In this document: positions 32,974 to 34,463 of the stretch, in pieces | How positions within the stretch are numbered: position 1 is the stretch's first letter | How the letters are laid out: each line of letters begins with the position of its first letter | From: a virus | Reading direction: 5' to 3' (one strand) | Virus record (IMG/VR): IMGVR_UViG_3300018041_000026 | Coordinates: 1-34,463 of that record | Length of the DNA: 34,463 nt | Position numbers and translations under genes: made by a program | The notes under the pieces: model-generated | What the model saw: only the letters and a program-made list of their open reading frames with translations | Database searches by the model: none | Told to the model about the DNA's origin: nothing

Positions 32974-33642
32974 TTAGAACCCTAAGTCATCCACTTCTTC
33001 AGCTTCAATAACTTCGATTTGGTTTACATCTTTATTGAAGTAACCCTCCATGTAGTTTTGAAGTTCACCCGCTACGCTATCAGCTTTTGCTGAATCTTTA
33101 GCAGTTAGGTTCTTGCCTAGTACAAAGTTAGGTGTAGAGTACTTAACACTCCCTTTCTTCGCTTCATTAGCTTCGTTTACCTCAATCCACTGGTTGTCTA
33201 GTAGATTTTTGTTGGCCTCAACAAAGTCAGACCATTCTTTTACACCTGCTCCTTTTAGGGATAGGTTAGCTAAAGTTCCGTCCTCAAGCATAATGTAAAT
33301 CGATCTGTGGTAACGACCACCTGCTTGTTGAACTTTTGCTTTGATGTCTTTGTAAAGACCCGAAGCAATTTCACCACCTTTAAACGCACGTACCGTCATC
33401 GGCTCAGTGCCAATGTAGTAAACTTCGTTCGACCAGATTCCAGATTCCGAAGCATCGTTCCAACCTTTTACGGTGTGGTAGTGTTGCAGGAACAAGAACT
33501 TTGTAGGTAGTTGAACTTGAACTTTTTGACCTGCTTCTTTGTCATAGTACTCGAAGCATTTGTCATTTGATTTCCACTCTAAGTATTTAGTAGTGGGGTT
33601 AGAGCTTTTGCTCTCTTGAGAAGTGTGGCTGATTCTTGCCAT
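32974..33642 (-). CDS. Probable single-stranded DNA-binding protein
   Basis: This 222-residue protein has a central beta-rich, Lys- and aromatic-rich region (VQVQLPTKFLFLQHYHTVKG; SNEVYYIGTEPMTVRAFKGG; RYHRSIYIMLEDGTLANLSL) compatible with an OB fold. It ends in an acidic tip EAEEVDDLGF, close to the SSB C-terminal tail that binds partner proteins (DDDIPF in E. coli). It is the first gene of its unit, behind a leftward promoter box and a long structured leader, and before a terminator, consistent with high and regulated output. I infer SSB from tail, composition and position; the OB fold is not proven from sequence. Confidence 0.62.
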   Translation of the reverse strand: MARISHTSQESKSSNPTTKYLEWKSNDKCFEYYDKEAGQKVQVQLPTKFLFLQHYHTVKGWNDASESGIWSNEVYYIGTEPMTVRAFKGGEIASGLYKDIKAKVQQAGGRYHRSIYIMLEDGTLANLSLKGAGVKEWSDFVEANKNLLDNQWIEVNEANEAKKGSVKYSTPNFVLGKNLTAKDSAKADSVAGELQNYMEGYFNKDVNQIEVIEAEEVDDLGF

Positions 33643-33674
33643 AATAAAAAGTGTTTTAAAGTACGAACATCAAC

Positions 33675-33691
33675 GCCCTGTCCGCTTGGGC
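33675..33691 (-). other. D-arm-like hairpin in the ssb leader
   Basis: On the minus strand GCCC-AAGCGGACA-GGGC folds into a 4-bp stem with a 9-nt loop. The loop (AA-GC-GG-AC-A) resembles a tRNA D loop, with A14, G18, G19 and A21 equivalents. It lies 6 nt downstream of the tRNA-like minihelix, in reverse order from a normal tRNA. Confidence 0.35.
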
Positions 33692-33697
33692 TCTCGT

Positions 33698-33736
33698 GCC
33701 ACGCTAGGAATCGAACCTAGAAAAACCGTTCGTGGC
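33698..33736 (-). other. tRNA-like minihelix (acceptor stem plus T arm) in the ssb 5' leader
   Basis: On the minus strand, reading 33736 to 33698: acceptor strand GCCACG; 10 nt (AACGGTTTTT); T stem CTAGG; T loop TTCGATT; T stem CCTAG; acceptor strand CGTGGC. Both stems pair perfectly (6 bp and 5 bp). The T arm has all tRNA hallmarks: 5-bp stem, 7-nt loop, TTC at 54-56, A at 58 and a closing G53-C61. D, anticodon and variable regions are missing, so it cannot decode. A leftward promoter box (33770-33777) lies upstream and the ssb-like ATG is 55 nt downstream, so it lies within a transcribed leader of about 120 nt. It may be a regulator, an RNase P/Z substrate, or a tRNA remnant. Confidence 0.6.
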
Positions 33737-33769: not shown

Positions 33770-33777
33770 CAAATATA
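33770..33777 (-). promoter_or_regulatory. Leftward Bacteroidota-type promoter -7 box (TATATTTG)
   Basis: The minus strand reads TATATTTG, 127 nt before the ssb-like ATG. That leaves a leader near 120 nt, unlike the 15-25-nt spacing of other boxes here. The 172-nt space between the exonuclease stop and the ssb-like start holds this box, the minihelix and the D-arm-like hairpin, with no gene. Confidence 0.58.
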
Positions 33778-33815
33778 AACGTAATGTTTATTTCTCACAA
33801 GAAAAAAGTGTTTTT

Positions 33816-34463
33816 TTACAAAATGATTACACCTTCTTCGTCCATAAAGTCCCAATTATATAGTGGAGCTTCGCCAGTATCTAAGTACTCTCTCCACTGA
33901 ATGATTGCGTTCTCGTAGTCAATTCGTCCACGCTCAATCATGTCTTCACTCAACCTATAACACTGAACGCTATACGGGTGATTGGTTTCGATCGCTTGGA
34001 AGATAAACCTACTTGGGTCAATACCTAGTGCGTCGCAGTAGAGCGTAGCTTGGATGTGGTACCCGTACTTGTAGATGTCGTTTCTAAAAGCTTTTGGTGT
34101 ATTACTTCTACAAGTCTTTATGTCAGATATAAAACCTTCGTCGTAGTTAATTACGTCAGGTCGTATTCTGAGGTACACGCCTTGAAAGTCTTCTACGTAG
34201 TGTGATAACTCAACATCACCTTTAGCGTACTTTGATGCGGTAGGGTTGTTGTCAAAGTTGTCTTTGATGATAGTGAACATCTCCCTATCAGTCTCTGGGA
34301 ACACTAACTTACCCTCTTCTTGCCACTTCTCTACCAACTTCTTTTGTTCCTTACCTTCAGCGGTTCTTCCGTCTATCTTGTCGTAGAACTTTACCTGCTC
34401 ATCAAATAAGTGTGGCTCAAGTACAAGTGTATGGATAGCGGTACCTAATTGGTACGCGTCGCT
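33816..34463 (-). CDS. RecE / PD-(D/E)XK-type exonuclease, partial (5' end outside window)
   Basis: The frame stays open to the right edge; the TTG at 34337 is internal, since upstream codons encode typical family sequence (QLGTAIHTLVLEPHLFDEQ, then DGRTAEGKEQKKL). The visible 215 residues include a His in GTAIHTLVLEP, the acidic motif IRPDVI, ISDIKT with the D-x-K pair, and YHIQATLYCDAL with the Q-x-x-x-Y of RecB-like nucleases. This matches the DUF3799 / exodeoxyribonuclease VIII-like group. It would resect double-stranded ends for annealing recombination. No phage annealase is visible here; it may lie further right. The next leftward gene is SSB-like. Confidence 0.82.
   Translation of the reverse strand, partial: SDAYQLGTAIHTLVLEPHLFDEQVKFYDKIDGRTAEGKEQKKLVEKWQEEGKLVFPETDREMFTIIKDNFDNNPTASKYAKGDVELSHYVEDFQGVYLRIRPDVINYDEGFISDIKTCRSNTPKAFRNDIYKYGYHIQATLYCDALGIDPSRFIFQAIETNHPYSVQCYRLSEDMIERGRIDYENAIIQWREYLDTGEAPLYNWDFMDEEGVIIL

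Follow-up and report, generated by a model that had tools for sequence, protein, structure and literature searches.

RNase P, RNase Z, and the CCA-adding enzyme all recognise the tRNA elbow, and bacterial RNase P shows a preference for CCA. In MALAT1/mascRNA and in mitochondrial tRNA punctuation, a tRNA-shaped element lies directly 3' of an RNA, and cutting makes the 3' end of that RNA; in mitochondria, the transcripts are cut by the tRNA machinery. These elements are either true tRNAs or retain an anticodon-like arm. A more reduced form is the RNase P model substrate AT1, which consists of the acceptor stem, T stem, and T loop of tRNA-Phe (PMC11143913), and the tRNA-like domain of tmRNA (RF00023), including its version in phage DS6A (PMC4131195), likewise has an acceptor and a T arm and no anticodon arm. 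The T4 gene 32 operator consists of a pseudoknot, UUAAA/UAAA repeats, and the ribosome-binding site (PMC535899), and the gene 32 mRNA is a reported RNase P substrate (PMC11143913).

We analyzed a minihelix in the window, that is, the whole stretch of 34,463 nucleotides of the IMG/VR virus record IMGVR_UViG_3300018041_000026. Read on the minus strand from 33736 to 33698, it comprises a 6-bp acceptor, the 10-nt linker AACGGTTTTT, a 5-bp T stem, and a TTCGATT loop; the original prediction had given the perfect stems, the linker length, and the loop exactly, and 11 of the 11 pairs are Watson-Crick in the window sequence. The features of the region, in the order of the minus strand, are as follows.

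33816 to 34337, minus strand: upstream gene, exonuclease VIII-like / DUF3799 nuclease, with its 5' end outside the window.
33770 to 33800, minus strand: Bacteroidota-type promoter-like TTG-N20-TATATTTG, by pattern match; predicted transcription start at about 33763.
33731 to 33736, minus strand: mini-tRNA acceptor 5' strand GCCACG, from the sequence, found by a model built without it.
33721 to 33730, minus strand: linker AACGGTTTTT, resembling the tRNA D loop (A14 R15 Y16 G18 G19 U20 U20a); family consensus AAYGGTTANN, partly set by the search pattern itself.
33704 to 33720, minus strand: T arm CTAGG TTCGATT CCTAG (33720-33716, 33715-33709, 33708-33704), from the sequence.
33698 to 33703, minus strand: mini-tRNA acceptor 3' strand CGTGGC, from the sequence and from acceptor covariation across the mini-tRNA family.
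33694 to 33697, minus strand: 3' tail ACGA, in agreement with the family tail A-C-(not C)-A.
33688 to 33691, minus strand: pseudoknot P1 5' strand GCCC, by parser, alignment, and strand reading.
33679 to 33685, minus strand: pseudoknot P2 5' strand GCGGACA, on the same evidence.
33675 to 33678, minus strand: pseudoknot P1 3' strand GGGC, on the same evidence.
33663 to 33669, minus strand: pseudoknot P2 3' strand TGTTCGT, on the same evidence.
33643 to 33662, minus strand: A/U-rich ACTTTAAAACACTTTTTATT with UUUAAA, from the pseudoknot to the start codon; TTAAA is invariant in alignment A5.
32974 to 33642, minus strand: SSB-like replication-module gene, 222 aa, phrog_6706 (unknown function), by profile match and context.

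With its acceptor stacked on the T arm and its TTCRANN loop, the minihelix is a tRNA-like structure in the broad sense; it has no anticodon arm and is thus no cloverleaf tRNA. ARAGORN, one of the tools originally suggested for the leader, reported nothing there, and Rfam at gathering thresholds, RF00005 included, likewise gave no match for the element. In the covariance search that had also been suggested, a model excluding the window sequence recovered the element at 53.1 bits (E=2.8e-15 in 115 kb, E-values being rough). Thermodynamic folding of the whole leader was ordinary compared with shuffled sequence (z=0.03); thus, energy by itself would have overlooked the minihelix. A structural scanner found one match in the window and, in controls on 2.06 Mb of fetched loci, none after Markov randomization and two in reversed sequence; its 119 matches in the real 2.06 Mb are an inflated count, because the loci were selected by related patterns.

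The window minihelix is one copy of a widespread phage mini-tRNA family whose members consist of an acceptor, a D-loop-like linker, and a T arm. A search with the acceptor fixed (GCCACG/CGTGGC) returned 32 loci, approximately 22 of them clean minihelices; two control acceptors also yielded clean minihelices, and the acceptor sequence was therefore rejected as a conserved feature, pairing alone being conserved. From the shared features, we derived the acceptor-free pattern RANGGTT-N6-GGTTCGATTCC, for which the IMG/VR matches listed are a lower bound. A slightly narrower pattern matched only 47 stretches of the GTDB genome set (257 Gb), and this contrast between IMG/VR and GTDB suggests viral enrichment.

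The central evidence for the fold is a register test on 158 unique loci among the matches listed for a register-fixed form of the pattern. It is the fairer test because these loci were picked by linker and T-arm sequence and acceptor pairing was no criterion, apart from a few loci that entered through acceptor patterns. The acceptor was fully paired (6 bp) in 45 loci at shift 0 and in 58 at shift +1, where one base lies between the T stem and the 3' strand; these two expected registers thus account for 103/158, compared with at most two fully paired acceptors in every other register. Among 106 accepted elements, 79 distinct acceptors were found. The tail after the acceptor showed a preference for A, C, not-C, A, with C at the second base in 79% and at the third in 8%. 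The apparent invariance of the linker and T loop was partly demanded by the search pattern, and a looser search revealed other linkers, some resembling a short D arm.

In an alignment of 36 members, restricted to the 41-nt class and partly selected for pairing, 99.7% of cells were paired versus 58.1% after shuffling, the covariation score was 1.095 versus 0.206, and changes on both sides were seen at each of the six acceptor pairs and at the three outer pairs of the T stem. A MAFFT alignment mixing 41- and 42-nt elements (A2) misplaced the one-base insertion and was left out. Compensatory change was also observed at orthologous sites: G002 and G004, sister phages of the phage of the window, carry TGATGC/GCATCA and CGATGC/GCATCG, respectively, past a noncoding stretch conserved in both, and both stems changed in a compensatory manner between the orthologues L150 and L172. 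Rfam and ARAGORN missed the elements of the family.

Related but larger structures were observed in two settings. In a related phage group (L042-L071, from the GCCACG pattern), the element is longer, its linker containing an additional small hairpin, CCC-N6-GGG, and it begins 5-8 nt past the stop codon of an upstream gene shared by the group. In the Lactococcus skunaviruses L302 and L306, a noncoding region near the genome end holds two tRNAs and, with linkers of 16-20 nt, two larger anticodon-less tRNA-like elements, which are unannotated in the records consulted and represent intermediate forms.

We addressed the placement of the elements relative to genes. The upstream gene was on the same strand in 61 cases versus 12 and the downstream gene in 64 versus 12, with random intergenic controls near even, and a stop codon lay within 20 nt upstream of 25/61 elements versus 17.6% of controls; these counts used mechanical ORFs and leave out 29 elements that overlap an ORF call. 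In Predator, a mycobacteriophage with annotated genes, one element begins 9 nt past gp43 and another 6 nt past gp45. In four loci (L130, L179, L188, and L291), the 3' end of a GOLLD RNA (RF02032) lies 7-10 nt before a mini-tRNA, an order that we liken to MALAT1/mascRNA and mitochondrial punctuation, although the mini-tRNAs lack an anticodon-like arm and belong to a phage or bacterial setting. A second mini-tRNA was seen approximately 510 nt before the GOLLD model match in L291:2641-3634.

Each phage record held one to six copies, full-length or nearly so, and mini-tRNAs are also present in cultured mycobacteriophages; because BLAST of cultured phages with such short elements returned mostly true tRNA genes, every candidate used was inspected. 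Twelve bacterial genomes searched whole contained one element each. Proteins near the bacterial elements had PHROGs matches in six of the eight loci scanned: clear terminase and portal matches beside the element in L274 and L277, a transposase in L276, Sak4 in L241, a primase in L268, and a weak tail-fibre match in L266; neighbouring proteins in L260 and L280 had no PHROGs match. A prophage context is clear for some of the bacterial copies and likely for others.

The leader of the window gene was then compared with those of related phages. The promoter match at 33800-33770 makes the promoter-like box and the 5' leader of ~120 nt proposed originally a reasonable reading, and the stop of the exonuclease VIII-like gene lies 79 nt before the minihelix. 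Relatives of the downstream 222-aa protein are encoded on 40 IMG/VR contigs, and the minihelix is absent from every readable sister leader among them except L002, whose protein and leader are identical to those of the window. Thus, the minihelix is not a conserved part of the control of the downstream gene. The sensor controlling SSB output that had been suggested originally found no support, because sister leaders lack the element and mini-tRNAs adjoin many unrelated genes as well as GOLLD.

The conserved feature specific to this leader is an H-type pseudoknot directly 3' of the minihelix, ending 20 nt before the start codon; the earlier reading of the leader, correct for the minihelix, had missed it. 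The two structures do not overlap, so both can form. A parser found the pseudoknot at the expected place in 31/35 distinct leaders, and no shuffled control reached the median real score. For several leaders that were missed or skipped by the automatic parser, the structure was read by hand: it is present in L017, L028, and L041, which brought the total to ~34/37 readable leaders, and only partial in L015. In the 27 leaders with both helices (14 distinct P1 and 22 distinct P2 sequences), all pairs form versus 57% after strand reassignment, a partly circular comparison in that the strands had been read off as helices. In alignment A5, made from sequence only on 13 close leaders, 100% of cells were paired, seven pairs changed on both sides, slid registers reached at most 44%, and TTAAA occurred between P2 and the start codon in 13/13 members. 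Alignment A6, of a second pseudoknot group, was unreliable and was excluded from the counts. In the window sequence, ACGAAC at 33733-33728 could also pair with GTTCGT at 33668-33663, breaking both the minihelix and P2; this pairing, found in one sequence, may be a switch or chance.

The leader shares its plan with the T4 gene 32 operator: a covarying H-type pseudoknot, then a UUAAA/UAAA element, then the start codon, in T4 that of a phage SSB gene. The strongly conserved pseudoknot probably controls a DNA-replication gene. The two differ in that the window has a single UUUAAA whereas T4 has several repeats, no sequence homology is evident, the window protein is unrecognizable as gp32, and no separate mini-tRNA is known in T4; for the window gene, repression is a proposal. 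The original label "ssb-like" fits the context of the gene, which neighbours an exonuclease VIII-like nuclease, a DnaA-C-terminal-domain protein, and a primase/helicase, but not the profile matches of its product, which belongs to phrog_6706 and matched no Pfam family. The AlphaFold model of the protein has a pLDDT of 84; its best PDB match, a chain of a phiC31 integrase-RDF fusion, was weak (prob 0.98, TM 0.33), and its viral matches were mostly uncharacterized proteins. In mycobacteriophage Gaia, the homologue is flanked by a DNA-binding protein and a polymerase/primase. No cultured relative was retrieved by Megablast of the replication module. It is plausible that the gene encodes an SSB.

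Taken together, we proposed that the mini-tRNAs act as processing punctuation in cis and that the cut in the window would feed an SSB-like mRNA subject to pseudoknot-mediated autorepression; we give this reading a probability of roughly 0.55. The RNA would fold as a tRNA elbow, with acceptor and T stem stacked into an 11-12-bp helix and the GG of the linker docked into the T loop. Host RNase P would cut on the 5' side of the acceptor; a second cut, after the discriminator, might be made by RNase Z or a different 3' nuclease. Adjacent phage genes would thereby receive separate RNAs, or noncoding RNAs such as GOLLD would be released. In the window, the SSB-like mRNA would, after such cleavage, have its 5' end just ahead of the pseudoknot, through which the encoded protein would most likely repress its own translation, like T4 gp32.

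We infer the cleavage from the shape of the element, whose likeness to the minimal RNase P model substrate favours punctuation: both have a T loop and an acceptor stem stacked on the T stem, here 11-12 bp in all. The T loop, GG linker, stack, and covarying stems of the family give good support to the earlier suggestion that the minihelix could mark the leader for cleavage. Unlike AT1, which is artificial and has a CCA end, the phage elements occur naturally, contain a D-loop-like linker, and mostly carry the tail AC(T/A/G)A; their cleavage is predicted. Several observations argue against this reading. The window tail, ACGA, is not an encoded 3' RCCA, family tails likewise lack an encoded CCA and rarely have C as third base (8%), and no clear U precedes the acceptor. 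For several elements, a same-strand gene close upstream is lacking, and the window element sits in a long leader, 79 nt past the previous stop rather than directly after it. A broader form of the proposal is a grammar used by phages of many bacterial phyla, in which a ~40-nt mini-tRNA, set between genes and behind noncoding RNAs such as GOLLD, would recruit host RNase P (and RNase Z) to cut operons, much as mitochondrial transcripts are cut, here feeding a T4-like pseudoknot; we advance it tentatively, at somewhat less than even odds.

As the main rival, a free small RNA acting in trans draws on the absent CCA and on the L133 tandem array. Such an RNA would be excised, perhaps CCA-added, and would titrate or decoy tRNA enzymes, EF-Tu, or tRNA-targeting defences. 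It would account for the retained elbow, the three copies in L101, and an encoded ACCA end in one element (L094), and it fits the six-copy noncoding array of L133, in a long stretch without clear genes, about as well as punctuation does. We nevertheless consider it unlikely, because the position beside stop codons and GOLLD 3' ends suggests action in cis, the acceptors differ almost everywhere so that no single identity is kept, and most tails are not CCA. Less likely again is a structural cap in cis that shields an RNA end or leader from exonucleases and involves no specific processing. The compact 11-12-bp helix right after stop codons is what such a cap would look like, but a plain hairpin would suffice, and the retained T-loop and D-loop-like features imply a tRNA-binding partner; with no U-run after it, the element is by sequence not a terminator either.

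Mimicry of the tRNA-like domain of tmRNA, by which the element would occupy SmpB and inhibit trans-translation, appears improbable. For some family members, tmRNA was the closest Rfam match, at 15-21 bits, and phage DS6A carries little beyond the tRNA-like domain of tmRNA, a similar molecule inhibiting tmRNA (PMC4131195). These scores are far under the threshold of 47, and the window gave no match at the gathering score. In addition, alanylation depends on G3-U70, whereas pair 3 is C-G in the window and GC, CG, AU, or UA in 32/36 members (G-U in 4/36), and the mini-tRNAs have no mRNA-like part and occur in many copies and positions. A decayed tRNA gene or a captured host attachment site, both raised originally, is more improbable still: integration-derived tRNA fragments are often present in prokaryotic genomes (PMC9897764), but both acceptor strands are kept and covary with no pattern of decay, and one to six copies per genome share an identical layout across unrelated phages; the position of the elements also speaks against it. 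A YrlA Y-RNA-like permuted tRNA mimic (RF02553), with which the leader shares a T-arm-like hairpin, can be dismissed, because the match spanning the minihelix and P1 scored 19.1 bits against a threshold of 69 and its supposed D arm is P1 of the pseudoknot, kept in phages without the minihelix. A PreQ1 match on the opposite strand was also below threshold.

Searches of Rfam 15 and of open-access papers yielded no prior description of the mini-tRNA family or of the leader pseudoknot. The natural, anticodon-less, intergenic phage form appears to be a new version of the known tRNA-like structures. If our reading is correct, tRNA-shaped punctuation would be a common phage route to cutting transcripts with host enzymes, the minimal RNase P substrate, first built as a laboratory design, would exist throughout nature, and the origin of the 3' end of the giant GOLLD RNA would become accessible. 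The compact covariance model would allow annotation of elements overlooked by tRNA finders. Separately, a pseudoknot conserved in the leader of a phage SSB-like gene would provide an independent parallel to the classical T4 gene 32 operator, in phages whose hosts are apparently Bacteroidota.

Several further arrangements were observed. On the minus strand of L133:940-1780, six mini-tRNAs lie ~150-200 nt apart among AACATAAC-like repeats, and on that of L101:1726-1988, three mini-tRNAs stand in tandem, with GGCAAGGC-type repeats and a GACCC-TTCG-GGGTC hairpin between them. In L285 (G002:38500-41266) and L286 (G004:16500-19500), a conserved noncoding stretch lies ~160 nt before the mini-tRNA; it is shared by these two sister phages, has no Rfam match at E<=0.1, and may represent a new phage noncoding RNA, with the mini-tRNA defining its 3' end. 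The annotated starts of Cosmo gp144 (L298:1208-1765) and Send513 gp56 (L305:1210-1680) overlap a mini-tRNA and have probably been placed too far upstream.
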